This document shows positions 7,977 through 61,779 of a stretch of DNA of 64,000 nt, piece by piece. A program made the translations under genes and the position numbers. The first letter of the stretch is position 1. Every line of letters starts with the position of its first letter. The DNA is from Solimonas flava DSM 18980 (lineage in GTDB: Bacteria; Pseudomonadota; Gammaproteobacteria; Nevskiales; Nevskiaceae). The stretch covers positions 186,001 through 250,000 of the forward strand of contig NZ_AUFV01000003.1 of assembly GCF_000426685.1 (NCBI RefSeq), written 5' to 3'. Under the pieces are notes generated by a model, which worked only from the letters and a program-made list of their open reading frames with translations, was not told where the DNA came from and did no database searches.

Positions 7977-9416
7977 CTACAGGCGCAACACCTGCCACTG
8001 CGCGGCGTCGTCGAGATAGCGGATCGTCGCCGTTCTGAACTTGAGGTCGACGAACAGTTCGCAGGCCCGCTCGCCGTCGCGCCAGACCATCGCCACGCTG
8101 CTGTCGTTCGAATACTGCAGATGGAAGCGGCCGTTGAACGCCGGGTAGCGATAGCGGAACTCCAGCAGCGCGAACAGGCGCTGCACCACCGGCTGCTGCA
8201 CGGCCTCGGCGATCTCCTGCTTGCTGTAGTAGTGCCGGTTGACGTCGCGCGGCTCGCCGCTCGCCGCCATCAGCTCCTGATCGTTCTGGCCGGCAAGCAG
8301 GCCGACGTAGTAGATCTGCGGGATGCCCGGCGCGAAGCACTGGATCGCACGCGCGCACAGGTATGCGTCGTCGTTGCGGTTGAGCGCATCGTAGTAGGTG
8401 CAGGTCAGCTGGTAGATCGCGCCGACGCTGTGGATGTTCGCCGCCGAGCGGCGCAGGATCGGATCGGCGCTGCGTTGCGAGATGTTGTGGATCAGCGCCT
8501 GGATCTCGCCCGGCGGCAGCACGCCCTCGACGTCCGGGATGCAGATACCGTCATGCGTGTCGAGCACGGTGATCTGCGTGCGCGGGCACATGCGCAGCCA
8601 GTGCTTGAGCTGCACGCTGTTTCCCTCCAGCAAGGCATACAGCAACAGCGGCGCCAGCGCGAAGCCGTAGGGCCGCATGCCGTGCTCGGCGATCGCGTAC
8701 TGATAGCTGGGATGGTCGTGAATCTCCGGCAAGGTCTCGGCGCCATGCGCGCGCGCGGCGGCGTCGACCCAGCTGAGGATGTCGTAGACCTCCGGCTCGA
8801 CCAGAAAGCAGCTCGTGCCGATCTTCTTGGTCGTGTAGCCGAAGGCGTCGAGCCGGAACAGCCGCACCCCTCTCGCGGCAAGGAACTTGATGTAGTCCTC
8901 GATCAGCGCGTAGGTCTTCGGCGACTGGAAGTTCAGGTCGATCTGGTGCTCGGTGAAGGTGCACCAGACGCGGCCCTTGCCGCCGTCGCCGAACGTGACC
9001 TCGCGGAACGGCTCCTTCTCCTTGCGGATGTGAATCTTGGCGAGATCGTCCGGCGAGATCTCGCCGAACTGGTCGACATGCACGAACAGCCCGGCGGCAT
9101 CGGACGCGTAGCCGTGGCGCAGGAAATCCTGGAATTCCTCCGACGCGTCGGAAATGTGATTGATGATCAGGTCGAGCGTGAGATCGTACCTGGCGGAAAT
9201 CCGCTCGATGTCGGCCCAGCTGCCGTAGCGCGGATCGATCGCCTTGTGCGTCAGCGGCGAGAAGCCGCCGTCGGCGTTCGACGGGTACGGCGGCAGGATG
9301 TGCACGCCGCCGAGACGGCCGCTGCCATGCGTTTCGAGAAACTCGAACAGATCGGCGAGGTTCTCGCCGAGGCGGTCGGGATAGGCGATCAGCTGCACCT
9401 GATTGCGGAGAGTCAT
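7977..9416 (-). CDS. Sucrose phosphorylase-family enzyme (GH13 subfamily 18)
   Basis: This 479-residue enzyme should cleave an alpha-glucoside with phosphate to give glucose 1-phosphate. The catalytic set of the sucrose phosphorylase family is intact: nucleophile Asp190 (LFRLDAFGY), acid/base Glu231 (LPEIHDH) and stabilising Asp289 (THDG). The NRHYYS loop near 420 also fits. The subfamily includes sucrose, sucrose 6-phosphate, glucosylglycerate and glucosylglycerol phosphorylases, and I cannot tell these apart by eye. The start at 9416 is where family similarity begins; the frame continues upstream without it. The gene stands alone, with no transporter, kinase or regulator beside it. Confidence 0.85.
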   Translation of the reverse strand: MTLRNQVQLIAYPDRLGENLADLFEFLETHGSGRLGGVHILPPYPSNADGGFSPLTHKAIDPRYGSWADIERISARYDLTLDLIINHISDASEEFQDFLRHGYASDAAGLFVHVDQFGEISPDDLAKIHIRKEKEPFREVTFGDGGKGRVWCTFTEHQIDLNFQSPKTYALIEDYIKFLAARGVRLFRLDAFGYTTKKIGTSCFLVEPEVYDILSWVDAAARAHGAETLPEIHDHPSYQYAIAEHGMRPYGFALAPLLLYALLEGNSVQLKHWLRMCPRTQITVLDTHDGICIPDVEGVLPPGEIQALIHNISQRSADPILRRSAANIHSVGAIYQLTCTYYDALNRNDDAYLCARAIQCFAPGIPQIYYVGLLAGQNDQELMAASGEPRDVNRHYYSKQEIAEAVQQPVVQRLFALLEFRYRYPAFNGRFHLQYSNDSSVAMVWRDGERACELFVDLKFRTATIRYLDDAAQWQVLRL

Positions 9417-9577
9417 CAAGTTTTTCCGTAACGGCTGGATGCGTCGCGGCCGGCGACCGCGCGCGTTATGCTCGGCCTGCGGCGGCGGTGCGCAGGATGC
9501 GACGTTCCGGTTTCGAAACTCGGGGCGACGCGAAGGTTCCCGGGCCCGTCGCTGCGGCGCCGCCTCCACGACCTGCC

Positions 9578-10333
9578 ATGAACCACACCACCGCCGCACC
9601 GGCCACCGGACCGGCTTTCCGCTACTACGACTTCCTGCTCGGCGGCATGGTCGCCGTGCTGCTGTGCTCGAACCTGATCGGGCCGGGCAAGGTCTGCACG
9701 CTGACGCTGCCGCTGATCGGCAACGTCGACTTCGGTGCCGGCAACCTGTTTTTCCCGATCAGCTACATCTTCGGCGACGTGCTCACCGAAGTGTACGGCT
9801 ACGCGCGCGCGCGGCGCGCGATCTGGGCCGGCTTCGGCGCGATGATCTTCGCGACGCTGATGTCGGCGATCGTCGTCGGCATGGCGCCGAGTCCGGACGA
9901 GCCGTGGAACGCCACGCTGCAGCCGGCGCTGGAAGTGGTGTTCGGCAACACCTGGCGCATCGTCGCCGCGAGCATGTTCGCGTACTGGGTCGGCGACTTC
10001 GTCAACTCGTACGTGATGGCGAAGATGAAAATCTGGACGCAGGGCCGCTTCCTGTGGATGCGCACGATCGGCTCGACGATCTGCGGTCAGGGCGCCGATT
10101 CGCTGCTGTTCTATCCGATCGCCTTCGCCGGCATCTGGGAGACGCACTCGCTGATCGCGGTCGTCATCTTCAACTTCGCGATGAAGGTCAGCGTCGAGGT
10201 CGTGATGACGCCAGCGACCTACTTCATCGTCAACCGCCTGAAGCGCGCCGAGGGGGTCGACACCTACGACACGCACACGCACTTCACGCCGTTCTCGCTG
10301 CAGGACGAGGGCGAGGTCCGGCAGCGCCCGTGA
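9578..10333 (+). CDS. yhhQ: Queuosine precursor transporter (YhhQ/VUT family)
   Basis: This 251-residue integral membrane protein has about six hydrophobic segments and matches the YhhQ family, which imports the queuosine precursors preQ0/preQ1 for tRNA modification. Characteristic stretches are FPISYIFGDVLTEVYGY (about residues 60-76), WVGDFVNSY near 145 and the TIGSTICGQGADSL motif near 175. The ATG at 9578 begins the family-like sequence. The stop overlaps the start of the next gene, an AraC regulator (GTGA overlap), so the two are co-transcribed. A link between queuosine uptake and that regulator is not otherwise evident. Confidence 0.88.
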   Translation: MNHTTAAPATGPAFRYYDFLLGGMVAVLLCSNLIGPGKVCTLTLPLIGNVDFGAGNLFFPISYIFGDVLTEVYGYARARRAIWAGFGAMIFATLMSAIVVGMAPSPDEPWNATLQPALEVVFGNTWRIVAASMFAYWVGDFVNSYVMAKMKIWTQGRFLWMRTIGSTICGQGADSLLFYPIAFAGIWETHSLIAVVIFNFAMKVSVEVVMTPATYFIVNRLKRAEGVDTYDTHTHFTPFSLQDEGEVRQRP

Positions 10334-11248: not shown

Positions 11249-11809
11249 ATGCCGATCCATCCCGCCCTGATTCTCGCCGCCGCGCTCGCCGCCAGCGGCC
11301 CCGCGGCCGCCGGCGACGTCACCACGCTGCGCCTGAGCAGCCCCGACCTCGCCGAACAGCGCCCGCTCGCCGCCGCGCAGGTCTACGCAGGTTTCGGCTG
11401 CCACGGCGGCAACCGCTCGCCGGCGCTGGCCTGGAGCGCCGGGCCGGCCGGCACGCAAAGCTATGCGCTGACCGTGTACGACCCGGACGCGCCGACCGGC
11501 AGCGGCTGGTGGCACTGGGTCGTCGTCAACCTACCGGCCGAGACGCGCACCCTGCCGGCCGGCGCCGGAAGCGCCGATGGCGCGGCGCTGCCGGCCGGCG
11601 CGCGCCAGCTCGTCACCGACTTCGGCGCGCCGGGCTACGGCGGCGCCTGTCCGCCCGCCGGCGCGCCGGCGCACCGCTACCAGTTCACCGTCTATGCGCT
11701 CGACAGCGTCCTCGAACTGCCGGCGAACGCGACGCCGGCGCTGGCCGGTTTCATGATCCACGCGCACGCCCTGGCCAGCGCCCGCATCACCGCCGTCTAC
11801 GGCCGCTGA
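11249..11809 (+). CDS. Secreted YbhB/YbcL-type phosphatidylethanolamine-binding (PEBP) protein
   Basis: The 186-residue product has a signal peptide (cleavage likely after the AAAG region near residue 22) and a PEBP/Raf-kinase-inhibitor-like fold. Family marks are the ligand-pocket blocks GGNRSPALAWS (about 51-61), YDPDAPTGSGWWHWVVVNLP (about 77-96) and the C-terminal PAHRYQFTVYALD. AGGAGA lies seven bases before the ATG. Bacterial members are periplasmic or cytosolic and mostly of unknown function. It follows an AraC regulator on the same strand and is convergent with an MFS gene; the two stops are 13 bases apart. Confidence 0.85.
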   Translation: MPIHPALILAAALAASGPAAAGDVTTLRLSSPDLAEQRPLAAAQVYAGFGCHGGNRSPALAWSAGPAGTQSYALTVYDPDAPTGSGWWHWVVVNLPAETRTLPAGAGSADGAALPAGARQLVTDFGAPGYGGACPPAGAPAHRYQFTVYALDSVLELPANATPALAGFMIHAHALASARITAVYGR

Positions 11810-13507: not shown

Positions 13508-15679
13508 GTGAGCGTCCAGCTGACGAGCGTCGCGGTGCCGGTGCCGCTGTACCGGAGCTTCGACTACCGGGCACCGGCCGAGCTGGCGGCGCAGCTGCGT
13601 CCGGGCGTGCGCGTGCGCGTGCCGTTCGGGCGCCGCCGCGTCACCGGCGTGGTGCTGCGCGCGCCCTTCGAGGCGGGCGACGACGGCCAGGATTACCGTC
13701 CGGTCGAGACCGTGCTCGACGACACCCCGCTGCTCGGCGCCGATCTGCTGGCGCTGTGCGAGTGGGCGGCCGACTACTACCGCCACCCGATCGGCGAGGT
13801 CGTCGCCGCGGCGCTGCCGGGCAGCCTCAAGCACGAGGGCCGCGCCCGGCTCGACAGCGCCCGGCAATGGCAGCTGAGCGCCGCCGGCCGCGAGGCCCTG
13901 GAGCGCCTGCCGGCGCGCCACCGCGCGCAGCGCGCCGCGCTCGAGGCGCTGCGCGCCGGCCCGCTCGGCAGCGGCGACTGGGCGGTCGAGGCGGCGGTGC
14001 GCGCACGCCTGCTCGCGCAGGCTTGGGTCGAGGCGGTGCCGATCCCGGACCAGCCCACCGCGTCGCCGCCCGCGCCGACGCTGACGCCGGCACAGGCCGT
14101 AGCCCTGCAGGCGCTGGAAGCGGCGGCGGCCGCCGGCTTCAGCGTCAGCCTGCTCGAAGGCGTCACCGGCAGCGGCAAGACCGAGCTGTATCTGCGGCGC
14201 ATCGAAGTGGCGCTCGCCGCCGGCCGCCAGGCACTGGTGCTGGTGCCGGAGATCAGCCTGACGCCGCAGCTCACGCAGCGCCTGCGCGAGCGGCTCGGCC
14301 CGGTCGTGCTGAGCTTCCATTCCGGGATGAGTGAAGGCGAACGCGAGCAGGCCTGGCTGGCGGCCCGCGCCGGCAGCGCCGGCGTGATCGTCGGCACCCG
14401 CTCGGCGGTGTTCGTGCCGTTCGCGCGGCTGGGACTGATCGTCGTCGACGAGGAGCACGATCCCTCGTACAAACAGCAGGACGGCTTCCGCTATTCGGCG
14501 CGTGATCTGGCGATCGTGCGCGCGCAGCGCCTCAAGGCCGAAGTCATCCTCGGCAGTGCGACGCCGTCGCTCGAATCGCTGCACAACGCCCGCCAGGGCC
14601 GCTACCGGTACGTGCCGCTGCGCGAACGCGTGCACGCCCAGCCGCCACCGCGCATCCGCGTGCTCGACGTGCGCCAGCAGACGCTCGCGCACGGCCTCTC
14701 GCCGATGCTGCTGGACGCGCTCGACCGCTGCCTCGAACGCGGCGAGCAGGCGCTGCTGTTCATCAACCGGCGCGGCTACGCGCCGATGCTGCTCTGCCAC
14801 GACTGCGGCTGGCGCGCCGCCTGCACCGCCTGCGACGCCCGCCTGACGCTGCACCGCGGCCGCGGCCGCCTGATCTGCCATCACTGCGGCGCGCAGCAGC
14901 CGGTGCCGAAGACCTGCCCGTCCTGCGGCGGCAGCGAGCTGATGCCGCTCGGCCAGGGCACCGAACGCATCGAGCAGGCGCTCGCCAACCGCTATCCGCG
15001 CCAGCGCGTCGAGCGCCTCGATTCGGATCGCCTCGGCAAGCGCCACGAGCTCGAACGCCTGCTCGCCGACGTGCGCGCGCAGAAGATCGACGTGCTGGTC
15101 GGCACGCAGATCCTCGCCAAGGGCCACGACTTCCCGAACCTGTCGCTGGTCGGCATCGTCTCCGCCGATCAGGCGCTGTACGGCGCCGACTTCCGCGCGA
15201 TCGAACGCATGGGCCAGCTCGTCACCCAGGTCGCCGGCCGCGCCGGCCGCGCCGGCCAGGCCGGCGAGGTCTGGCTGCAGACGCACGAGCCGCAGCACCC
15301 GCTGCTGCGCACGCTGGTCGAACGCGGCTACGACGCGCTCGCCGACGCGCTGCTCGAGGAACGCGCGATGGCGAAGCTGCCGCCGTACGCGCATCTCGCG
15401 CTGCTGCGCGCCGAGGCGCAGGACAGCGGCCTGCCGCTGCGCTTCCTCGCCGCCGCGCGACAGCTGTACGCGCCGTTCGCCGACGTCGAGGCGATGGCGC
15501 CGATCCCGTCCGGCATGGAACGCCGCGCCGGCTACACGCGCGCGCAGCTGCTGCTGCAGTCGGACAGCCGCGCCGCGCTGCAGCGCGCGCTGGCCGCGAC
15601 CGTGCCGCGGCTCGGCGAACTGCCCGACGCGCGCCGCGTGCGCTGGTCGGTCGACGTTGATCCGGCCGATCTGTTCTAG
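13508..15679 (+). CDS. priA: Primosomal protein N' (replication restart helicase PriA)
   Basis: PriA recognises stalled forks and reloads the replicative helicase. The 723-residue protein has the N-terminal 3'-end-binding domain (about 1-100), then a superfamily 2 helicase core. The core shows Walker A GVTGSGKTE near residue 219 and the DEEH box near 314. Cysteine pairs binding two zinc ions lie at about 430-480 (CHDC, CTAC, CHHC, CPSC). The GTG at 13508 is the family start, with a weak ribosome site. In many gammaproteobacteria priA lies close to argS and a SPOR gene. Here a 4.5-kb block separates them, and the last 14 codons of priA are repeated at the far side of that block (20161-20208). 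Confidence 0.96.
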   Translation: MSVQLTSVAVPVPLYRSFDYRAPAELAAQLRPGVRVRVPFGRRRVTGVVLRAPFEAGDDGQDYRPVETVLDDTPLLGADLLALCEWAADYYRHPIGEVVAAALPGSLKHEGRARLDSARQWQLSAAGREALERLPARHRAQRAALEALRAGPLGSGDWAVEAAVRARLLAQAWVEAVPIPDQPTASPPAPTLTPAQAVALQALEAAAAAGFSVSLLEGVTGSGKTELYLRRIEVALAAGRQALVLVPEISLTPQLTQRLRERLGPVVLSFHSGMSEGEREQAWLAARAGSAGVIVGTRSAVFVPFARLGLIVVDEEHDPSYKQQDGFRYSARDLAIVRAQRLKAEVILGSATPSLESLHNARQGRYRYVPLRERVHAQPPPRIRVLDVRQQTLAHGLSPMLLDALDRCLERGEQALLFINRRGYAPMLLCHDCGWRAACTACDARLTLHRGRGRLICHHCGAQQPVPKTCPSCGGSELMPLGQGTERIEQALANRYPRQRVERLDSDRLGKRHELERLLADVRAQKIDVLVGTQILAKGHDFPNLSLVGIVSADQALYGADFRAIERMGQLVTQVAGRAGRAGQAGEVWLQTHEPQHPLLRTLVERGYDALADALLEERAMAKLPPYAHLALLRAEAQDSGLPLRFLAAARQLYAPFADVEAMAPIPSGMERRAGYTRAQLLLQSDSRAALQRALAATVPRLGELPDARRVRWSVDVDPADLF
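15623..15679 (+). repeat. priA 3' end, left copy of a duplicated segment
   Basis: The last codons of priA (PDARR-VRWSVDVDPADLF-stop) recur at 20161-20208. Apart from a 9-base in-frame difference near the start of the repeat, the copies differ by one synonymous base (GTT versus GTC) and by the stop codon (TAG versus TGA). Confidence 0.9.
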
Positions 15680-15824
15680 GGCGCCGCTCCGCGCGAGCGC
15701 GGCGCCCATGCTGGCAGTCACTTTCGGCGTTCGCGCCGCCGCGCTGCACGCAATGACGAACCGGCAAGCCGCGGCTGCCGTCGCGCCGGAGCAGCCCGCG
15801 CCAGGCCGCCGCTCACTGCCGAAA

Positions 15825-15856
15825 CGAAGACACCCCTTCGCAAAGGGGCGTCTTCG
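15825..15856 (-). terminator. Hairpin terminator for the lipoprotein gene ending at 15872
   Basis: CGAAGAC-CCCCTT and AAGGGG-GTCTTCG arms form a long stem with a single mismatch and a CGCA loop, 16 bases beyond the stop of the minus-strand lipoprotein gene. The T-run on the minus strand is short. It may stop transcription from both sides, since priA ends 150 bases to the left. Confidence 0.6.
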
Positions 15857-15871
15857 CCGCGGCGGACGGAC

Positions 15872-18091
15872 TCAGGGCCTGCGGCCGGTGAACCGCGACA
15901 CGCCCGTGCAGCGCGTCTCGCCCGGCCCGCGATAGGTCCAACTCGTCTGGCCGCTGAGCTCGGTGCTGTTCGGGATCGACACCCGCACGGTCTCGGTGGT
16001 CTCGCCGGGGCCGTCCTCCATCGTCACGGTCAGCTGACCCGAAAGGCCCGAGGGATCGTCGGCCGAGCCCATCGTCAGCTCGAGAGATTTGCCGGCGTAC
16101 TCGGTCAGGTACTTCGTGTCCGAGATCTTGCTGACGCCGACCGTGAAGCGGCTGTCCTCGTCCTCGCAGAGCCCCGGCTGCGACACGCTGGTCACCGTCG
16201 TGTGCGAGCTGATTTCCCAGGCGCCTTCGAAAACGCGCTTGATCGTCACGAGGACGGTGGCGGCCTTCGAATAGCCGTTCTCGTTCTTCGCCCGGTACGT
16301 GAAGCGGTCGGCGCCGAACGACTGTCCGGACGGCGTGTAGGTGAAGCGATCATCCGCCTGCAGCGACACGCTGCCCAGCGTCGGCGCGCTCACGACTTCC
16401 AGGCTGTCGGCACCACGCACCGAGAGCGTCGATTCCGCGGGCGTACCCTGCGTCACCGTGATCGCCGCATCGTCAGCCTCGGGCAGATCGATGCTGAGCT
16501 GCGCGGCGACGGTGATCGGATCGCCTTCGTCGCGAAGGAGCTTGAAGTCGAAATCGATGTTTTCCTCTTCCGGCTCGATCGCCTTGAACTTCAGCACGAT
16601 GTGCACGGCGGACGGCGCCGCGCTGCCGCTGATATCGCTCCTCGAGATGCCGCCGAGCGTGACCCCAGCCGCCGGCAGGTCTTCGGTCTTTTCGGTCTGC
16701 AGGCTGGCAAGGAGATTCTGCAGCGAGTCGGGCAGATACGGCAGACGCGAGATCATCGTCGCGAGACGCGCGAAGTTCGCCTGCACGACGCCGAGCACGC
16801 TGTCGTCGATGCGCAGCGTGCGCTCGATGCGGAAGGTCTGCGCCACGTCGTTGGCGAAGCCGATGCGCGCCGCGCCCGTCAGCGCGCGGACCTGCTTGTA
16901 CGCCGATCCGCCGCGACTGGCGTCCTCGCCGGTGATCACGCGCACCAGCTGCGCGGCCACTTCCTTCAGGCAGGTCCCCAGCACCGCGCCGACGCTGGTG
17001 CGCGTCTTGTTGAACTCCGTGAACGCGTTGACCGCGCTGCCGATCGCGACGCCGGCGTAGATCGCGCTGAGCACGCTGCCGTTCGCGATCTGCTTGCCGC
17101 TCCAGTAGGTGGCGCTCATCCACAGCGCCAGGCTGGCGTTGCTGCGGACGAACTCGGCGGTCTTGCTCTTGCAGGCGCTCAGATCGAAGGCGCGCGCCGG
17201 CGTCGCCGCAGCCGGAATCGAGCCGTCGGCGGCGATGAAGCCGTTCGCGACCAGCACGACGGCCGCCTCTTCGAGCTCGGCCGGCGTCGCACCGTCCAGC
17301 TGCGCCAGCGCCGCGTCGAGATCCTGCTGCTGCTGCTCGATCGTCGCCAGCTGGCTGGCGCTGAAGGTCGCGCCGTACGCCGTGACGATGTCGTCGAGCT
17401 GCGCCTTGAAATGACGCAGCGCCGCCGACACGACGGCGCCCGCATCGGCGATCGCCGGCGCGCCCTCGATCTGCAGCGGATACGCGTACGAGCGCGTGCC
17501 GATCGTCACCCGCAGGATCTTCTCGCCGGCGACGGCCGTGGCCGGCACCGCGAAGGTCAGCGTGCCGGCATCGCTGCGGTACAGCGTGAGGTCCTGGCCG
17601 TCGAGCGTGGCGACGTAGCTTTCGTCCTCGAGCGGCAGCTGGTCGGCGAACAGCAGGCCGAGCTCGCCGCCGGCGAGCGTCGACTTGCCGTCCGGAATCG
17701 TCAGGCTGGCGAGCGTCGCAGTGGCGCGGATCGTGACCTCGGCGCGAGCCGTGCGCTCGGCGGCGTCGGTCGCCGTCGCGGTGCAGACGATGTCCGTGTC
17801 CACGGTCACCGTCGGCGTGATCAGGAGCGTGCCTTCCAGCGTCCCGCCCGTGCACGCCAGCCCGACCTCGAGCGCGTCGCCTTGCGCATTGCGCGCCGTC
17901 GCGGTGAGGGCGACGGTCTCGCCGCCTTCCACCGTCGTCGCGGACGCCGTCAGGGCCACGCTCGGCGGCGCCTCATCGTCGCCGCCGCCACCGCCGCACG
18001 CCGCCAGCTGGACGATCAGCAGACCGGCCATCGCGCGCGACAGCAGGCGCCGCTGCGGCGGGTGACGTGAAACATGAAAAGCGCTGGACAT
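15872..18091 (-). CDS. Large surface/periplasmic lipoprotein with Ig-like repeats
   Basis: The 739-residue product has a lipoprotein signal peptide (lipobox LAAC, Cys32) followed by a glycine/aspartate linker. A first Ig-like domain covers about residues 40-130 (VALTASATTVEGGETVALTA), with a second beta-rich region to about 225. The middle (about 230-480) is alpha-helical. Near 590-640 there is a bacterial Ig/cadherin-like unit with the ADDRFTYTPSGQSFGADRFTY pattern. The C-terminal 100 residues carry two cysteines. I chose the ATG at 18091 because AAGGGAG lies nine bases upstream and the signal peptide begins there. It is divergent from a LuxR-hydrolase gene and lies inside the block bounded by priA-tail repeats. 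The function is unknown. Confidence 0.75.
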   Translation of the reverse strand: MSSAFHVSRHPPQRRLLSRAMAGLLIVQLAACGGGGGDDEAPPSVALTASATTVEGGETVALTATARNAQGDALEVGLACTGGTLEGTLLITPTVTVDTDIVCTATATDAAERTARAEVTIRATATLASLTIPDGKSTLAGGELGLLFADQLPLEDESYVATLDGQDLTLYRSDAGTLTFAVPATAVAGEKILRVTIGTRSYAYPLQIEGAPAIADAGAVVSAALRHFKAQLDDIVTAYGATFSASQLATIEQQQQDLDAALAQLDGATPAELEEAAVVLVANGFIAADGSIPAAATPARAFDLSACKSKTAEFVRSNASLALWMSATYWSGKQIANGSVLSAIYAGVAIGSAVNAFTEFNKTRTSVGAVLGTCLKEVAAQLVRVITGEDASRGGSAYKQVRALTGAARIGFANDVAQTFRIERTLRIDDSVLGVVQANFARLATMISRLPYLPDSLQNLLASLQTEKTEDLPAAGVTLGGISRSDISGSAAPSAVHIVLKFKAIEPEEENIDFDFKLLRDEGDPITVAAQLSIDLPEADDAAITVTQGTPAESTLSVRGADSLEVVSAPTLGSVSLQADDRFTYTPSGQSFGADRFTYRAKNENGYSKAATVLVTIKRVFEGAWEISSHTTVTSVSQPGLCEDEDSRFTVGVSKISDTKYLTEYAGKSLELTMGSADDPSGLSGQLTVTMEDGPGETTETVRVSIPNSTELSGQTSWTYRGPGETRCTGVSRFTGRRP

Positions 18092-18210
18092 ACCGCGAGC
18101 TCCCTTTGCAAAAGCACCGAATGGGTCGCCGGACGCGATGCCCGGAACGGCCCGGGCGCGCCCCTTCGTCCGGCGCTGCGAAGACCTTGGCACGACCGTT
18201 CGCGCCGACG

Positions 18211-18230
18211 CATTGCCCATTTGGGTAATG
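18211..18230. promoter_or_regulatory. 20-bp dyad, lux-box-like operator
   Basis: CATTGCCCATTTGGGTAATG is palindromic except at one position in each arm and the central pair. It sits between the lipoprotein start (18091, minus) and the start of a LuxR-type regulator (18312, plus), about 80 bases before the latter. The size and symmetry are those of LuxR-family operators, so autoregulation and control of the lipoprotein are plausible. Confidence 0.55.
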
Positions 18231-18311
18231 CTGCGTTGCGCGGGCCGGCGGCGGCGTGCTACTGCTGCGGCGTTCGCCGGTTTATCCGAAGCCCGCCCAT
18301 CCCGATCCCCG

Positions 18312-20141
18312 ATGACGTCCAGCCTTCCTCCGCCGCGCGCGCTGTCCGAGCTGATCGGGCTGGTCTACGACGCCGCCACCGATCTCAGCCTCTGGCCGGA
18401 GCTGCTCGAAGGCGTGTCCGGCTATCTGCAGCAGCTCGACGAAGACACGCCGCGCCTGAGCCATCAGACCGTGCACGGCCTCGTCACCCGCTGGTTCGAC
18501 CAGGGCACGCTGATCGAGGGCGCGGCGACGCCCGGCGAACGCCAGCTGCTGCAGCAGCTAATTCCGCATTTCGTTCGCGCCAACGCGATCCATCACGAGC
18601 TGGCGCAGGCTGAGGAGGAACGCGATCTGCTGGAAGGTGCCCTCGACCGCCTGCCAGTCGGCATGGCCATCGTCGACCGCGACGGCCGCGTCAGCGGCAT
18701 GAACCGCGCGCTGCTCGACGTCACGCGCGGCAAGGGCGCGCTGCGGCTCGAGCACGGCCGGCTGGTGGCAACGCCGGCCGCGCCGCTGCAGGCGGCGATC
18801 CGCGCCGCGATCGACCAGCCGGACAGCGCCGGCCGCTCGCTGCACCTCGACGCGAACAGCGCCGATGCGCTGTCACTGCTGGTCTCGCGCATGGCGCTGA
18901 AGGGGCGCAGCGACGCCAGCCGCGCCGTTGTGTTCGTCGCCAGCCGCCGCACGCACCAGCTGTCGGAACAGGCCCTGATGTCGGCGTTCGGCCTCACGCC
19001 GGCCGAGGCGCGCGTGACGCAGGGGCTGGTCCGCGGGCGCACGCTCGAACAGATCGCCCGCGAGCACGCGGTGACGATCCATACCACGCGTGCGCAGCTC
19101 AAGGCCGTCTTCGCCAAGACCGGCGTGAGGCGACAGCCGGAGCTGATGCAGACCCTGTACAGCAGTCCGGTCTGGCTGGATACCGTCGCCGAGGAAACGC
19201 GCGCCGCCGGGCCCGCGGCCTTCCGGGAGATGCCGTCGCCCGCGGCGCCGACGGAAGGGCTGCGCCTGCGCGACGGGCGCTGGCTGGCATACGCCGACGT
19301 CGGCGATACCGGCGACCTGCCGGTGATCCTGATGCACGGCATCTCCGGCTCGCGCTTCCAGCGCCATCCCGACGACAGCCTGCTGCCGCGCTGCGGCGTG
19401 CGCCTGATCCTGCCGGAGCGGCCCGGCTGCGGCGATTCCGACCCGCTGCCGGGCCGGCGCATCACCGACTGGCCGCGCGACGTCGCTGCGCTCGCCGATC
19501 ATCTCGGGCTCGATCGTTTCGCCGTCGCCGGTTTCTCCGGCGGCACCCCGTACGCGCTGGCCACCGCCGCACTGCTGCCCGAGCGCGTCAGCAGCGTCAC
19601 CCTGGTCGGCTGCGCGCCGCCGTTCACCGGCGTCGAGGACATCCGCCACTACCTGCCGGCCTTCCGCATGGCGATGCTGCTGGCGCGCTACACGCCGAGC
19701 TTGCTGTCGCCGGTGATGCGCGTGGTGATCAAGGGCATCCGCAAGGACCCGCAGCGCTACATCGAGCAGGTCAAGACGCAGGTCACGGACGCCGACCGCG
19801 AGATCCTCGACGACCCGGCACTGCGCAAGGCCTATGTCGACGGCCTGCTGGCCTCGGTGCGGCACGACGAGCGCGAGCTCGTGCTCGAGACGCTGCTGTC
19901 GGTGCAGGACTGGGGCTTCGAGCTGTCCGACGTGCGCGCGCCGGTGACGATCTGGCATGGCGAGGACGACCGCCACGTGTCGATCGCCCTGGCCGAACGC
20001 ATCGGCCGCCAGCTCGAGGCCGTGGCGCTGAACCGCCTGCCGCAGGCCGGCCATTTCGTCATCTACGCGCTGTGGCAGACCATCTTTTCGAGCATCGCCG
20101 ACGCGGAGCGGAGCGCCCAGCCGCTGGGCCTGGCGTCCTGA
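18312..20141 (+). CDS. LuxR-type HTH regulator fused to an alpha/beta hydrolase
   Basis: The 609-residue product combines two functions. Residues 1-215 include a PAS-like segment (LPVGMAIVDRDGRVSGMN near 120). Residues 220-290 are a LuxR-type helix-turn-helix (FGLTPAEARVTQGLVRG). From about 310 to 600 there is a complete alpha/beta hydrolase: nucleophile elbow GFSGG with Ser near 409, acid Asp near 551 and His near 580. All triad positions look intact, so it may be a regulator that senses or degrades its own ligand. The ATG at 18312 is the first in the family-like part, with no strong ribosome site. The upstream dyad at 18211 is a likely target. The gene lies in the block between the duplicated priA ends. 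Confidence 0.8.
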   Translation: MTSSLPPPRALSELIGLVYDAATDLSLWPELLEGVSGYLQQLDEDTPRLSHQTVHGLVTRWFDQGTLIEGAATPGERQLLQQLIPHFVRANAIHHELAQAEEERDLLEGALDRLPVGMAIVDRDGRVSGMNRALLDVTRGKGALRLEHGRLVATPAAPLQAAIRAAIDQPDSAGRSLHLDANSADALSLLVSRMALKGRSDASRAVVFVASRRTHQLSEQALMSAFGLTPAEARVTQGLVRGRTLEQIAREHAVTIHTTRAQLKAVFAKTGVRRQPELMQTLYSSPVWLDTVAEETRAAGPAAFREMPSPAAPTEGLRLRDGRWLAYADVGDTGDLPVILMHGISGSRFQRHPDDSLLPRCGVRLILPERPGCGDSDPLPGRRITDWPRDVAALADHLGLDRFAVAGFSGGTPYALATAALLPERVSSVTLVGCAPPFTGVEDIRHYLPAFRMAMLLARYTPSLLSPVMRVVIKGIRKDPQRYIEQVKTQVTDADREILDDPALRKAYVDGLLASVRHDERELVLETLLSVQDWGFELSDVRAPVTIWHGEDDRHVSIALAERIGRQLEAVALNRLPQAGHFVIYALWQTIFSSIADAERSAQPLGLAS

Positions 20142-20160
20142 ACCGCACCGCGCGCCTGCG

Positions 20161-20208
20161 CCCGACGTGCGCTGGTCGGTCGACGTCGATCCGGCCGATC
20201 TGTTCTGA
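20161..20208 (+). repeat. priA 3' end, right (non-coding) copy of the duplicated segment
   Basis: The sequence would encode PDVRWSVDVDPADLF followed by TGA in an open phase but has no start of its own. It repeats the priA terminal codons at 15623-15679. It falls 19 bases after the stop of the LuxR-hydrolase gene and just before the convergent UPF0016 gene. Confidence 0.9.
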
Positions 20209-20215
20209 AGCCGGC

Positions 20216-20791
20216 TCAGCCGCCGAGCGAATGGCGGAACAGCAGGGTGCTGACGCCGAGCACGAGGAACAGGCCGGCGGCGACGATGCGGATCGCCTTC
20301 AGCGGCAGCTTCTTGGCGAGCGCCGCGCCGACGAAGATCACCGGCACGTCGGCGAGCATCATGCCGGTCGTGGTGCCGGCGACGACGGCCGCCAGCGAGT
20401 CGAAGCGCGCCGCCAGCAGCGTGGTCGCGATCTGCGTCTTGTCGCCGATCTCCGCGAGGAAAAACGCCAGCGCGGTGACCAGAAAGGCGCTGCCGTCGCC
20501 GGCCGGCTTGGCCTCGTCCTCGTCGATCTTGTCCGGCACCAGCGCCCACAGGCCGACGGCGATGAACGAACCGCCGACGATCCACGGCAGCCACTGCGCC
20601 GGCACCACTGTGCGCACCCAGCCGCCGAGCGCGCCGGCCAGCGTGTGATTGAGCAGGGTCGCGACCAGGATGCCGGCGATCACCGGCGCAGGCTTGCGAA
20701 AGCGGGTGGCGAGGACCAGCGCGAGCAGCATGGTCTTGTCGCCGATTTCGCCGAGCAGCACGGCGCCGGTCGAAACGAGGAAGGCTTCCAT
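20216..20791 (-). CDS. UPF0016/TMEM165-family manganese exporter
   Basis: The 191-residue membrane protein has about six helices arranged as two related halves. Each half carries the family signature E-x-G-D-K-T (Glu15-Thr20 and Glu114-Thr119) that binds the transported cation. Bacterial members such as MneA export Mn2+; eukaryotic relatives (Gdt1/TMEM165) exchange Ca2+ or Mn2+. The charged, lysine-rich loop near residues 88-99 separates the halves. The start at 20791 opens the first helix; the frame continues upstream only through the leader. That leader contains a yybP-ykoY riboswitch, which strongly supports a manganese role. It is divergent from argS. Confidence 0.9.
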   Translation of the reverse strand: MEAFLVSTGAVLLGEIGDKTMLLALVLATRFRKPAPVIAGILVATLLNHTLAGALGGWVRTVVPAQWLPWIVGGSFIAVGLWALVPDKIDEDEAKPAGDGSAFLVTALAFFLAEIGDKTQIATTLLAARFDSLAAVVAGTTTGMMLADVPVIFVGAALAKKLPLKAIRIVAAGLFLVLGVSTLLFRHSLGG

Positions 20792-20867: not shown

Positions 20868-21000
20868 GCTCGTCCTGGTCTCGCCAGGCGACGTGCGCGC
20901 CGTGCAGGCGGCTTCGTCGCTGGACGCGCCATGTCCCGACCGGGACAAGTCTGTTGACGCGTCCTCCCGCCTTGCGCGGGACGGCTACTCCCCAAAAACG
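20868..21000 (-). promoter_or_regulatory. yybP-ykoY manganese riboswitch
   Basis: Read on the minus strand, the leader of the UPF0016 gene starts with TTTGGGGAGTAGCC (near 20995-20982). It continues with a GTCCCGC/GCGGGA stem, then a GACGCG...CGCGTC helix enclosing CGTCAACA. It ends with GCGAGACC (20885-20878). GGGGAGUAGC, GUCAACA and GAGACC in this order and spacing are the hallmark conserved elements of the yybP-ykoY class, which binds Mn2+ and turns on exporters. A minus-strand TAGGCT at 21012-21007 would start transcription close to 21000. The expression platform (about 20792-20867) has no obvious terminator, so translational control is likelier. Confidence 0.85.
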
Positions 21001-21099
21001 GCGCGCAGCCTAGCCGAAAAGCGCGGCGCGCAAAAGACGCCGTCGTCGCCGCCCGGCTACAATCCGCGCCCAAAAACTCGCTGCCACCTTGGTTTTTCG

Positions 21100-22875
21100 A
21101 TGAAAACGCATTTGCAGGACCTGCTCGCCCGCGCCCTCGACCCGCTGCTCGCCGGGACCGAGATCGCGCGACCGGCGATCCAGCTCGATGCGACCAAGGA
21201 CCCGAAGTTCGGCGACTTCCAGACCAACCTCGCGCTGCAGCTCGCCAAGCCGCTCGGCAAGCCGCCGCGCGCGGTCGCCGAAGCGCTGGTCGCGGCGCTG
21301 CCGCCGGCCGGCATCGTCGCCAGGGTCGAGATCGCCGGGCCCGGCTTCATCAATTTCTTCCTGAACCGCGCGGCGTTCCAGAACGTCATCGCCGACGTGC
21401 TCGCGCAGGGCGAGCGGTACGGCCGCGACGATTCCGGCAGCCGCGGCCGCATCATGGTCGAGTTCGTCTCGGCCAATCCGACCGGGCCGATGCACGTCGG
21501 CCACGGCCGCGGCGCCGCGTACGGCGATTCGGTTTCCAAGCTGCTCGCCGCGACCGGCTGGACGGTGTGGCGCGAGTACTACATCAACGACGCCGGCCGC
21601 CAGGTCGACGTGCTCGCGGTCAGCGTCTGGCTGCGTTATCTGCAGGCCTGCGGCGAGACGATCGAGGTGCCGCGCCGCGGCTATCCCGGCGACTACATCC
21701 GGAAGACCGCCGCCGCCGTGCTCGCCACGCACGGCCGCGCGTTCGCGCACACCGCCGCCGAGGTGTTGGCCGGCCTGCCGGCCGACGCCGTTGCGCCGGA
21801 AGGCGCCGACGACGCGCAGAAGGAAGCCGTCAAGGCGCAGCAGGAGCGCTATCTCGACGCGCTGATCGAGCGCGCCAAGGCGCTGCTCGGCGACGGCTAT
21901 CGCACGATCCAGCAGGCCGCGCTCGACGACCAGCTCGGCGTCATCAGGAAGACGCTCGCCGACTTCAACGTCGAGTTCGACCAGTGGTCGTCGGAAGCGG
22001 CGCTGGTGCAGTCGGGTTTCGTGCAGATCGCGCTCAAGCGCCTCGCCGACCAGGGCCTCACCTACGAGAAGGACGGCGCGCTGTGGATGCGCACCGAGGC
22101 GTTCGGCGACGAGAAGGACCGCGTGCTGGTCAAGGCCGACGGCGCCGCAACCTACTTCTGCAACGACCTCGCCTATCACGTCGACAAGCTCGACCGCGGC
22201 TGGCCGATGCTGATGGACGTCTGGGGCGCCGATCACCACGGCTACATCGCCCGCGTGCGCGCCGCGATCGAAGCGCTGACCGGCCGCAAGGACGCGCTCA
22301 ACGTGCAGCTGATCCAGTTCGTCACGCTGTCCTCGGGCCGCATGGGCAAGCGCAGCGGCAATTTCGTCACGCTGCAGGATCTGATCGACGAGGCCGGCAC
22401 CGACGCGACGCGCTTCTTCTATCTGACGCGCTCGCACGACCAGCATCTCGAGTTCGACATCGACCTCGCGCGCTCGCAGTCGAACGACAATCCGGTCTAC
22501 TACGTGCAGTACGCGCACGCGCGCATCTGCCGCGTGTTCGAGCAGCTCGCCGAGAAAGGCGGCACGTGGAAGGCCGAAGATGCCGCGGCGGCGCTGCACC
22601 GTCTCGACACCGAACACGAGAAGGCGCTGCTGACGCTGCTGACGCGCTATCCGGAGATGCTGCGCAAGGCGGCGGCGGCGTACACGCCGCACACCGTGGT
22701 GTTCTTCCTCAAGGATCTCGCCGAGGCGCTGCACAGCTACTACAACGTGCACCGCTTCCTGGTCGACGACGATGCCGAACTGCAGAACGCGCGCCTCGCG
22801 CTGATCGCGGCGACCGGCCAGGTGCTGCGCAACGGCCTCGCCATCCTCGGCGTGTCGGCGCCGGAAAAGATGTAG
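21100..22875 (+). CDS. argS: Arginyl-tRNA synthetase
   Basis: The 591-residue enzyme charges tRNA-Arg. It shows the N-terminal additional domain, then the class I signature HVGH (about residue 132, in NPTGPMHVGHGRG). The degenerate KMSKS-like loop GRMGKRSGN lies near 414, and the C-terminal DALR anticodon-binding domain follows (about 470-591). The ATG at 21100 is the family start; no clear ribosome site precedes it. The SPOR gene follows on the same strand. Confidence 0.97.
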   Translation: MKTHLQDLLARALDPLLAGTEIARPAIQLDATKDPKFGDFQTNLALQLAKPLGKPPRAVAEALVAALPPAGIVARVEIAGPGFINFFLNRAAFQNVIADVLAQGERYGRDDSGSRGRIMVEFVSANPTGPMHVGHGRGAAYGDSVSKLLAATGWTVWREYYINDAGRQVDVLAVSVWLRYLQACGETIEVPRRGYPGDYIRKTAAAVLATHGRAFAHTAAEVLAGLPADAVAPEGADDAQKEAVKAQQERYLDALIERAKALLGDGYRTIQQAALDDQLGVIRKTLADFNVEFDQWSSEAALVQSGFVQIALKRLADQGLTYEKDGALWMRTEAFGDEKDRVLVKADGAATYFCNDLAYHVDKLDRGWPMLMDVWGADHHGYIARVRAAIEALTGRKDALNVQLIQFVTLSSGRMGKRSGNFVTLQDLIDEAGTDATRFFYLTRSHDQHLEFDIDLARSQSNDNPVYYVQYAHARICRVFEQLAEKGGTWKAEDAAAALHRLDTEHEKALLTLLTRYPEMLRKAAAAYTPHTVVFFLKDLAEALHSYYNVHRFLVDDDAELQNARLALIAATGQVLRNGLAILGVSAPEKM

Positions 22876-48907: not shown

Positions 48908-50545
48908 TCAGCCCCGCGCGGCGTGCGGCCACGGCGTCATCGCCCAGCCGCCGGCCGAGCGCTGCAGCCGTGTGTCGAGCCCGAGGCCGTCGAGCAGCGC
49001 GGCGTCGTGCGAGACCACCAGCAGCGCGCCCGGATACTGACGCAGCATCGCGGCGAGCGCCTGGCGCGCCGCCAGATCGAGATGACGGTCCGGCTCGTCG
49101 AGCAGCAGCAGCTGCGGCGCCGGCTCGGCGTACAGCGCGAGCGCCAAGGCCGCCTTCACACGCTCGCCGCCGCTGAGCGCAGCCGCGGGCTGGACGACGC
49201 GCGCGGCGTCGAGCCCGAGCAGCGCCAGCCGCGTGCGCAGCTCGCCGTCGGCCAGTCGCGCGTTCGCGACCCGCAGCTGCTCGAACACCGAGCGCCCGGC
49301 GTCGAGACCCGACAGCGTCTGGTCGAGGTACGCGCCGGGCACGCGCAGCGCGCGCACGCCGGCCAGCGGCGCAAGGCGTCCGGCGAGAACCTGCAGCAGC
49401 GTCGACTTGCCGCTGCCGTTGGCGCCGATGAGGCCGATGCGCTGGCCGGCGCGGATGCACAGCTCGATGCGCCGGGCGGCGCCGGCCAGATACGGCAGCT
49501 CGACCGCGCGCAGCTCGGCGATGCGGCCGGCGCCGGCGCCGCCGGCGTCCGGCGCGAACAACAGCACCGGGGCCGCCGCCTCGACCTGCGCCGCCGCCTC
49601 GCGCACGCGCTGCGCGAGATCGGCCTGCCGGGCCTGCCGCTGCGCGCGGTGGCGGCCGGCGCTGGCCTCGCTGCGCTGACGGCGCAGGCCGAGCAGGATC
49701 GGCGCCTGATTCTCGGTCGCCGCCTGTCTGGCGCCGCGCGCCGCGCGGTGTTCGAGCCGTTCGCGTTGCGCGCTGATCTCCCGCTCGCCGCGCCGGCGCT
49801 CGTGCTGGCGGCGCGCCAGCTCGGCCTGCGCCAGCGCGTGCTCGTCGGCGCGGGTCTGCCGGTAGAACGCGTAGTCGCCGCCGTAGCGGTGCAGGCCCAG
49901 CGCGGACAGCTCGACGATGCCCTCCATCGCCTGCAACAGCGCGCCGTCGTGGCTGATCAGGATCAGGCCGCCGGACCAGCGCTGCAGCCAGGCGCCCAGA
50001 CGCTGGCGACGCACGCCGTCGAGATCATTGCCGGGCTCGTCGAGGATCAGCAGCTCGGCACCCGACAGGCGCGCCCCGATCAGCGCGACGCTGGCGCGCT
50101 CGCCGCCGCTGAGCCGCGCCGCCGGCGTGTCGGCGTCGAGATGCGCGAGCCCGTCGTCGACGAGCGCCTGGCGCAGCTGCGCGCGCAGGTCCCAACGGTC
50201 GGCCAGCGCCTCGAAGTCCTCGCTGCGGCTACTGCCGGCCTCGATGCGGCGCAGCGCCTCGAACGCGCCGTGCAGACCGGCCAGCCCGGCGACGGTCTGC
50301 GCCGGCGGTACGTCGATCTGCTGGCTGAGATAGTGGATGCGGCCGCGGCGCTCGACACGGCCCTGCGTCGGCGCCAGCGCGCCGGCGAGCAGGCGCGCCA
50401 GCACCGATTTGCCGATGCCATTGCGGCCGACCAGGCCAGTGCGGCGCGCGTCGAAATGCTCGTGCAGCCCGTCGAACAGCGGCCGGCCGTCCGGCAGCCG
50501 GTACGAAACGCCGTGCAGCGTGATGGAAGCGTGCGAAGTGCCCAT
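48908..50545 (-). CDS. ABC-F family ATPase (ribosome-associated type)
   Basis: The 545-residue protein has two ABC cassettes with no membrane domain. Walker A motifs are GRNGIGKS near 40 and GANGSGKS near 357. LSGGE signatures lie near 145 and 450, with an arginine-rich linker (about 230-300). The two Walker B ends read DEPGNDLD and DEPDRHLD rather than the usual DEPTNHLD of EttA/Uup. Family members modulate translation or give antibiotic protection; this subgroup is not assigned. Confidence 0.85.
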   Translation of the reverse strand: MGTSHASITLHGVSYRLPDGRPLFDGLHEHFDARRTGLVGRNGIGKSVLARLLAGALAPTQGRVERRGRIHYLSQQIDVPPAQTVAGLAGLHGAFEALRRIEAGSSRSEDFEALADRWDLRAQLRQALVDDGLAHLDADTPAARLSGGERASVALIGARLSGAELLILDEPGNDLDGVRRQRLGAWLQRWSGGLILISHDGALLQAMEGIVELSALGLHRYGGDYAFYRQTRADEHALAQAELARRQHERRRGEREISAQRERLEHRAARGARQAATENQAPILLGLRRQRSEASAGRHRAQRQARQADLAQRVREAAAQVEAAAPVLLFAPDAGGAGAGRIAELRAVELPYLAGAARRIELCIRAGQRIGLIGANGSGKSTLLQVLAGRLAPLAGVRALRVPGAYLDQTLSGLDAGRSVFEQLRVANARLADGELRTRLALLGLDAARVVQPAAALSGGERVKAALALALYAEPAPQLLLLDEPDRHLDLAARQALAAMLRQYPGALLVVSHDAALLDGLGLDTRLQRSAGGWAMTPWPHAARG

Positions 50546-60072: not shown

Positions 60073-61779
60073 TTACAGCGCCAGACGCCGCAGATCGGAC
60101 AACAGCTTGGTCAGCAGCACGATGAAGCGCGCCGCGTAGGCGCCGTCGATGACGCGATGGTCGTACGACAGCGACAGCGGGCACAGCAGACGCGGCTGGA
60201 AAGCCTTGCCGTCCCAGACCGGTTTGATCTGGCTCTTCGACACACCGAGGATGCCGACCTCCGGCGCGTTGACGATCGGCGTGAAGAAGCTGCCGCCGAT
60301 GCCGCCAAGCGAGGAGATCGAGAAGCAGCCGCCTTTCATCTCTTCGGGCTTGAGCTTGCCGTCGCGCGCCTTCTTGGCCAGCTCGGCGGTTTCCTGCGCG
60401 AGCTGAACGATGCCCTTGCGGTCGGCGTCGCGCACCACCGGCACGACCAGACCGTTCGGCGTATCGGCGGCGAAGCCGATGTGCATGTACTGCTTGAGGA
60501 TCAGGCTCTCGCCATCCGGCGACAGCGAGGCGTTGAACTCCGGATACTGCTTCAGTGCCGCCGTCACCGCCTTGATGATGAACGGCAGCAGCGTCAGCTT
60601 GACGCCGCCTTCCTCGCTCTGCGCCTTGCGGAAGGCTTCCAGCTCGGTGATGTCGGCTTCGTCGGTCTGGGTGACATGCGGGATGTTGAGCCAGGCGCGA
60701 TGCAGGTGCGCGGCCGAGAGCTTGCGGATGCGCGCCAGCGGCCTGGTCTCGATCGCGCCGAACTGCGCGAAGTCGATGGCCGGGATCGGCGGAATGCCGG
60801 CACCGCCGGCAGCAGCCGGCGCCGCGGCGGGCGGCTGTGCGAGGCGCTGCTTGACGAAGCCCTGCACGTCCTCGATCAGGATGCGGCCGCGGGCGCCGCT
60901 GCCGTGCACCTGGAACAGATCGACGCCGAGTTCGCGCGCGAACTTGCGCGTCGCCGGACCGGCGTACGGCACCTCGCCGTCGCGGCGCGCGGCGGCTGCC
61001 GGCGGCGGGATCGGCGCGGTGTCGGCGATGATCGCGAGCGGATTGGCCGGCAGCGGCTCGGTCGGCGTCGCCGGATCGCGCGGCGGCGGCGATTCCGCTG
61101 CGGCGGCGGGCGGCGGCGCGGATGCGGTGCCGGCCGCGGCGAGCAGCGTGCAGACTGCATCGCCCTGCGAGACCTTGTCGCCGACCTTGAGCTTGAGCGC
61201 GCGCACCGTGCCGGATGCCGGCGCCGGCACTTCCAGCGTCGCCTTGTCGGATTCCAGTACCAGCAGCGGCGCGTCCTTCTCGATCGCGTCGCCGTCCTTC
61301 ACCAGCAACTCGATCACCGGCACGTCGTGATAGTTGCCAATGTCGGGAATGCGCACATCGATCTCGGCGCCGGCCGCCGCCGGCACCGGCACCGGCACCG
61401 GCACCGGCACCGGTGCAGCGACCGGCGCGGCGGCAACGGGCGGCAGCGGCGCGGGCGCGACCGGGGCGCTGGCCGGCGGCGCTGCGACCGGTGCCGCCGT
61501 AGCGGCGGCCGGCGCCGGAGCCGGCGCGGACACCGCCGCTTCGGCGGTTTCGAGCTCGCAGATCTCGGCGCCCTGCGAAACCTTGTCGCCGACCTTGAGC
61601 TTGAGCGCGCGCACCGTGCCGGCCGCCGGCGCCGGCACTTCCAGCGTCGCCTTGTCCGATTCCAGTACCAGCAGCGGCGCGTCCTTCTCGATCGCGTCGC
61701 CGTCCTTGACCAGCAACTCGATCACCGGCACGTCGTGATAGTTGCCGATGTCGGGGACCGTGACTTTCTGATTCGCCAT
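60073..61779 (-). CDS. aceF: Pyruvate dehydrogenase complex E2, dihydrolipoyllysine acetyltransferase
   Basis: The 568-residue E2 has two lipoyl domains (about 1-75 and 140-215, lipoylated Lys in ESDKATLEVP), each followed by an Ala/Pro hinge. The first hinge contains a run of five Val-Pro units. A peripheral-subunit-binding domain follows (about 270-310, ATRKFARELGVDLFQVHGSGARGRILIEDV). The catalytic domain (about 335-568) has the His in SLSYDHRVIDGA. The two lipoyl regions are nearly identical at the DNA level. It lies 13 bases downstream of aceE. No lpd follows. Confidence 0.96.
   Translation of the reverse strand: MANQKVTVPDIGNYHDVPVIELLVKDGDAIEKDAPLLVLESDKATLEVPAPAAGTVRALKLKVGDKVSQGAEICELETAEAAVSAPAPAPAAATAAPVAAPPASAPVAPAPLPPVAAAPVAAPVPVPVPVPVPAAAGAEIDVRIPDIGNYHDVPVIELLVKDGDAIEKDAPLLVLESDKATLEVPAPASGTVRALKLKVGDKVSQGDAVCTLLAAAGTASAPPPAAAAESPPPRDPATPTEPLPANPLAIIADTAPIPPPAAAARRDGEVPYAGPATRKFARELGVDLFQVHGSGARGRILIEDVQGFVKQRLAQPPAAAPAAAGGAGIPPIPAIDFAQFGAIETRPLARIRKLSAAHLHRAWLNIPHVTQTDEADITELEAFRKAQSEEGGVKLTLLPFIIKAVTAALKQYPEFNASLSPDGESLILKQYMHIGFAADTPNGLVVPVVRDADRKGIVQLAQETAELAKKARDGKLKPEEMKGGCFSISSLGGIGGSFFTPIVNAPEVGILGVSKSQIKPVWDGKAFQPRLLCPLSLSYDHRVIDGAYAARFIVLLTKLLSDLRRLAL
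61163..61348 (-). repeat. aceF lipoyl-domain DNA repeat, copy A
   Basis: This 186-base segment (encoding most of the second lipoyl domain) repeats copy B at 61571-61756 with only about seven differences by my count, some of them synonymous. Confidence 0.85.
61381..61416. repeat. Hexanucleotide tandem repeat in the aceF hinge
   Basis: CGGCAC occurs five times in a row followed by a degenerate sixth unit. On the minus strand it encodes the Val-Pro repeat of the first hinge. Units are multiples of three, so slippage would change hinge length without a frameshift. Confidence 0.85.
61571..61756 (-). repeat. aceF lipoyl-domain DNA repeat, copy B
   Basis: This 186-base segment covers the first lipoyl domain and pairs with copy A at 61163-61348. 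Confidence 0.85.

Follow-up and report, generated by a model that had tools for sequence, protein, structure and literature searches.

The 3' end of priA occurs twice in Solimonas flava DSM 18980, and the two copies bracket a two-gene block that, on comparison with related genomes, is most plausibly inserted DNA at a variable site between priA and gdt1. The right copy, which ends in TGA, is quite possibly the native end of priA, stranded when imported DNA, bearing a TAG-terminated priA end together with the two genes, recombined at priA, a reading that we favour while stopping short of calling it probable.

The duplicated priA end and the block between its copies

The complete priA gene (13508..15679, plus strand, stop codon TAG) matches the Pfam families PriA_3primeBD, PriA_C, DEAD and Zn_ribbon_PriA, and its product is 96% identical at the amino acid level to that of Solimonas variicoloris DSM 15731, the nearest named relative found by PriA, with S. 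soli next. A 40-base stretch made up of the final 39 codon bases of the gene and the first base, T, of the stop codon (15638..15677, plus strand) recurs 4529 bases downstream, at 20167-20206, with 39 of the 40 bases identical; the one difference is GTT in the left copy and GTC in the right. Extended without gaps, the match covers 49 nt at 92% identity (15629-15677 and 20158-20206, E about 1e-12) and is the second-strongest self-match in the window, by which we mean the whole 64-kb stretch of DNA analysed. The strongest is a 187-bp repeat near 61 kb, a direct repeat whose copies (61161-61347 and 61569-61755) are 97% identical. No third copy of the priA end was found in the whole 4.46-Mb S. flava genome with up to three mismatches allowed and the differing base left open, and a reversed-pattern control also gave 0 matches; the search for the tail as an attachment site elsewhere, which the earlier note had proposed, was thus negative.

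The left copy is translated as PDARRVRWSVDVDPADLF followed by the stop codon TAG, and the right copy (20158..20208, plus strand) as PDVRWSVDVDPADLF followed by TGA. The right copy lacks a start codon, is out of frame with the gene that precedes it, and ends 7 bases from the stop codon of gdt1. Relative to the left copy it lacks 9 bases near its left end, in frame, and the same stretch of PriA is also variable in length in S. terrae and in a further relative, G001. The earlier note had described such a start-less recurrence, with the GTT/GTC difference and the change from TAG to TGA, and our comparison bears it out; its 9-base in-frame gap is likewise a fair reading of the two translations. The boundary of the match falls precisely inside the stop codon, beyond which each copy completes a valid stop of its own, and the 9-base gap preserves the frame. 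Two alleles of a genuine gene end would look like this; in a random patch of DNA, such a gene-end match would be a coincidence.

Between the priA and gdt1 stop codons, both excluded, lie 4536 bases, 4050 of which are occupied by two genes. The first, lip (15872..18091, minus strand), encodes a large putative lipoprotein, so named from a lipobox read in the sequence, with an Ig-like Big_9 domain (Pfam) near its C-terminus. The second, lux (18312..20141, plus strand), encodes a putative LuxR-type regulator-alpha/beta hydrolase fusion. The hydrolase half of this label, which was given in the earlier note, is supported by a Pfam Abhydrolase_1 match, whereas its LuxR half corresponds to a weak NCBIfam match at residues 221-284, far below the cut-off, with no Pfam LuxR match. 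The start of lux is probably at 18312 and not, as first called, at 18138, because its residues from 18312 on agree with the beginning of the S. variicoloris gene, and the two frames diverge further upstream. Searches against Pfam, NCBIfam and PHROGs revealed no integrase, transposase or recombinase in the two block proteins. The codon use of the block was not found to be foreign: ranked by deviation, lip is 27th and lux 31st of 41 window genes (reading frames chosen mechanically, a few of which may be wrong). The departure in codon use for which the earlier note had suggested looking is therefore not seen, and the native codon use makes it likely that the block came from the genus itself or from close to it. 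The gap between priA and lip, which we tested as a repeat, is present in a single copy in the S. flava genome. The locus lies in the middle of its contig, and an artefactual join in the assembly is unlikely.

On the far side of the block lies gdt1 (UPF0016 family; Pfam GDT1; 20216..20791, minus strand), the original neighbour of priA, which directly follows priA in G001, S. terrae and S. fluminis. A manganese riboswitch (Rfam RF00080, yybP-ykoY) lies upstream of it at 20886-21005 on the minus strand and fits a manganese-controlled exporter; nothing else in the window reaches an Rfam gathering score. The conserved flank continues with argS (21100..22875, plus strand), assigned from its Pfam domains and present in all 11 genomes of the genus, S. 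flava included.

The priA-gdt1 junction in related genomes

We compared 11 of 70 priA loci, five of which share the junction; together with S. flava and G001, this gives seven genomes in which priA and gdt1 are convergent at this place. The junction is empty in three of the seven, with 24 bases between the stop codons in S. terrae, about 38 in G001 and about 109 in S. fluminis. Just ahead of the gdt1 stop codon the S. flava sequence shows a likeness to S. terrae, over a length too small to be informative. In S. soli it holds a single gene for an Mrr-type restriction endonuclease (L048 4411-5400), with a GC content of 0.572 and a GC3 of 0.667, against a GC3 of 0.919 for priA. In S. aquatica it holds one gene for a 261-residue protein (L081 12166-12951) that matches CarO porin weakly, at a score far under the cut-off, and the 3' end of this gene overlaps that of priA by 4 bases on the opposite strand. 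The lip-lux pair occupies the junction in S. flava and S. variicoloris. Among the other loci compared, priA lies about 85 bases from argS in Fontimonas, with gdt1 not between them; gdt1 was not found in the priA-argS gaps of G006 (3 kb) and G005 (7 kb); and the stretches L085, L087 and L088 contain neither gdt1 nor argS. In G004 and G009 priA and argS are apart.

The single-tail, uninterrupted junctions of S. terrae, G001 and S. fluminis agree with the proposal of the earlier note that the two genes were inserted between priA and gdt1. Insertion is supported by the finding of an empty junction in three of the seven genomes and of unrelated genes in two others, and since the cargo differs between species and is absent in others, it would represent gain at a variable site and not loss. 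It is thus very improbable that the block is ancestral in the genus and was lost elsewhere, the repeat being secondary. Such an origin would account for the native codon use of the block, but the other relatives carry different cargo or none, and lip homologues are present in only two of 11 genomes of the genus (S. flava included) and in three of 85 genomes of the order at E≤1e-20. At the level of the family, lip homologues at E≤1e-10 occur in four of 58 genomes, that of G043 being a partial match at 26%, and a close lux homologue (95%) was found only in S. variicoloris among the 58 searched.

In G042 (L151 5881-9306) a 43% lip homologue stands beside a LuxR-family gene in convergent orientation, unlike the arrangement in the block. 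We considered whether this pair, and the partial match in G043, represent the block as a mobile pair elsewhere; LuxR genes are common, and we therefore draw nothing from them. In the S. variicoloris stretches compared, three further genes called in the window (7977-9599, 11249-11809 and 48908-50545) have no match, and these are either additional differences or wrong calls.

A second copy of the priA tail was present only in S. flava among the compared genomes, and no second full tail was found beside the S. soli insert, the S. aquatica insert or the S. variicoloris block. This bears on the mobile element that the earlier note had invoked, one that enters a gene end and re-creates it. Islands inserted by integrases at the 3' ends of genes rebuild the gene end and leave the old end on the far side, and the anatomy of the S. 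flava locus is like theirs; a direct repeat of the priA 3' end borders the block on both sides in S. flava but not in S. variicoloris. Even so, we regard it as highly unlikely that a small element inserted itself here in the manner of a tyrosine integrase, with the 3' end of priA as its specific target and the two tails as attachment sites. Neither of the genes that fill most of the block encodes an integrase, the tail has no further copy in the genome, the same block lacks the repeat in S. variicoloris, and the other occupied junctions compared are without a shared repeat. Together with the native codon use, these results tell against a mobile element of this kind.

Origin and timing of the second priA end

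In the explanation that we favour, the junction of the S. flava lineage would originally have contained no added genes, priA terminating with TGA a few bases short of gdt1. The incoming DNA would have come from a relative and carried a priA 3' end with TAG, followed by lip and lux. On the left, it would have been joined by homologous recombination with the resident priA, and on the right without real homology, a few codons ahead of the resident priA stop codon. The outcome would be a rebuilt priA and, as the right copy, a resident tail stranded before gdt1. Entry of a circularised fragment through a single crossover in the tail would be an alternative route to the same product. The repeat, the empty and filled junctions, the lack of an integrase among the block genes, the two different stop codons and the greater divergence of the block are observed; the direction, the mechanism and the timing of the insertion are inferred.

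The stop codons support a native right copy, since TGA also ends priA in S. soli and G001 and TAG ends the left copies of S. flava and S. variicoloris; their ancestry is ambiguous, however, as TAG is also found in S. terrae, S. aquatica and S. fluminis. The right copy is identical to the S. variicoloris priA end at 40 of 40 bases, and the GTT of the S. flava left copy is absent from the other Solimonas priA ends compared.

Fourfold-degenerate sites of S. flava and S. variicoloris differ at 99 of 1322 positions (0.075) in five flanking genes (mfs, priA, gdt1, argS and SPOR). In the block the silent divergence is about twice as high (0.14-0.16 vs 0.075): lux differs at 53 of 368 sites when read from 18312 (61 of 378 from 18138), and lip at 43 of 268 sites outside a near-identical tract (Fisher p vs the flanks about 1e-4 and 3e-5, respectively). 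The tract, 16930-17720, with two differences at 163 fourfold sites, was set apart post hoc after a sliding comparison; when it is included, lip differs at 45 of 431 sites (p 0.055). About 750 bases of lip (16950-17700) are near-identical to S. variicoloris, and much of the remaining block is several percent off; this stretch is either a recent recombination tract or strongly conserved. When 37 window genes were ranked by fourfold divergence (the 41 minus three without a match and one with a poor match, 33 fourfold sites at 0.515), a single gene, at 0.181, exceeded lux. The deeper divergence of the block than of its flanks supports the idea that the block travelled separately, and may reflect either separate arrival in the two lineages or weaker constraint on accessory genes. 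Within priA itself, the rise in divergence over the last 120 codons is only marginal (p 0.049, post hoc), and thus falls short of demonstrating an imported priA end.

In S. variicoloris the block is present at the same place with one full priA tail, so the block does not always come with the duplication. Of the proposal in the earlier note that the insertion made the duplication, the insertion of the block stands, and the coupling of the two is weakened by this genome, which has the same genes at the same place and only one full tail, half of the outcome that the note had named as refuting. The lux-gdt1 gap of S. variicoloris contains a strong hairpin (z -3.0), which is absent from the S. flava gap (z +1.2). 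The lack of a second tail in S. variicoloris, together with this hairpin, supports the import reading. Part of the hairpin is a stretch that matches the core of the tail at 17 of 20 bases. A match this good was equalled in 10 of 2000 shuffles of the S. variicoloris gap, and in a control with nine other loci 20 of 3075 stretches scored as high, 18 of them on the relatives' own priA ends; once these ends were removed, two of 3039 did so, which makes the likeness more remarkable and shifts some weight to an older insertion. The stretch may be a decayed tail, an annealing place for a copied tail, or a chance likeness aided by the make-up of the hairpin. If it is a decayed tail, then the event that duplicated the tail is older.

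We further compared the 60 bases downstream of genes between S. flava and S. variicoloris, retaining from 39 gaps the 28 that overlap a called gene by at most 10 bases (gaps between convergent genes were counted from both sides). Half of them (14/28) are at least 90% identical and seven of the 28 are at most 58% identical (5/26 once the two gaps of the block are removed), as if some gaps had been rewritten in one step.

Such rewriting bears on two other accounts of the second tail. According to the first, the block and the duplicated tail date from the common ancestor of S. flava and S. variicoloris, and the right copy was later lost or overwritten in S. variicoloris. The identical place of the block in both genomes, the tail-like stretch, rare in both controls, and the loss of similarity in some gaps agree with this older insertion. 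On the other hand, the tail-like stretch belongs to a hairpin, and the right copy would have stayed unchanged relative to the S. variicoloris left copy over 40 non-coding bases, for which the chance is 0.22-0.007 at a neutral divergence of 0.075-0.25. An attempt to date the right copy by neutral divergence was undecided, as the rates from fourfold sites and from intergenic gaps are about threefold apart. We consider the older insertion fairly unlikely, while giving it serious weight.

The second account reverses the order of events: about 45 bases of the priA end were copied into the lux-gdt1 gap after the block had arrived, either through short-patch illegitimate recombination or by template switching, perhaps where the 17/20 similarity lies. 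Short-patch double illegitimate recombination is known as a mechanism. The second tail is confined to S. flava among the genomes compared, the tail-like stretch of S. variicoloris offers a possible annealing site, and gaps are sometimes rewritten, all of which would fit a later short copy. It needs, however, three chance events, namely an end in a stop codon, a new stop codon and an in-frame difference of 9 bases, and the right copy is without the GTT change that is particular to S. flava. This course of events seems unlikely to us. The short name of short-patch double illegitimate recombination was not found in the main text of PMC8116780 as searched.

Known routes of integration and meaning of the locus

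The import reading resembles homology-facilitated illegitimate recombination (HFIR), in which one end of the incoming DNA is anchored by homology and the other is joined without homology, so that foreign genes are added beside a conserved gene without the help of a recombinase gene (PMC3240628). In S. flava the insert lies beside a conserved gene able to serve as the anchor, priA, it carries no recombinase gene, and its site is empty in relatives. According to the same source, HFIR products generally lose a comparable length of resident DNA, and microhomology was absent from the junction in three of four HFIR clones of E. coli. On the non-homologous side of the S. flava block, the lux-gdt1 gap differs from that of S. 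variicoloris. At the S. flava locus, in contrast, no resident DNA appears deleted, the priA end being present twice and gdt1 intact, and this absence of a deletion on the illegitimate side lowers the claim of a standard HFIR product. Homologous or illegitimate recombination, the fallback of the earlier note, survives as the favoured reading, without the deletion expected of HFIR.

The circularised-fragment route has a counterpart in E. coli, where, according to the same source (PMC3240628), 56 of 60 clones from the insertion of a circularised fragment gave the PCR product of a duplication, and 14 sequenced single-crossover clones carried duplications of 109 to 950 bp. Such Campbell-type integration, which needs only partial homology, likewise leaves part of a gene end directly repeated on either side of the insert, but the duplication in S. 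flava is only about 45-50 bases. A comparable outcome is described for the T6SS effector-immunity clusters of V. cholerae, in which a 5' anchor is constant, new genes are found downstream and the old 3' part is kept, and for which HFIR has been proposed (PMC5361080). The V. cholerae orphans keep whole immunity genes, whereas S. flava keeps about 15 codons without a start. A length of 45-50 bases, the size of the S. flava duplication, is short for a RecA-dependent crossover.

Two families of DNA-uptake proteins, which we take to be ComEC and DprA, were found in all four Solimonas genomes examined. They are also present in 10 and 11 of 14 control genomes, E. coli included, and their presence is therefore no evidence of competence.

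A broader interpretation, which we regard as speculative and rather doubtful, is that priA-gdt1 serves Solimonas as a permanent landing site that needs no integrase, used by three unrelated cargoes, and that stranded tails like that of S. flava are datable scars of natural recombination anchored in the upstream core gene. The part of the literature covered by our search yielded no report of a landing site at priA. The locus has the appearance of a commonplace remnant left by the untidy joining of imported DNA, and not of a new mobile element, and the finding leaves the functions of priA and gdt1 unchanged. Bacterial genomes commonly differ by small insertions without a recombinase, but how these entered can rarely be seen. 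A leftover gene tail that keeps its own stop codon records the entry directly, and the priA-gdt1 junction, empty or variously filled within one genus, is a usable site at which to test it.
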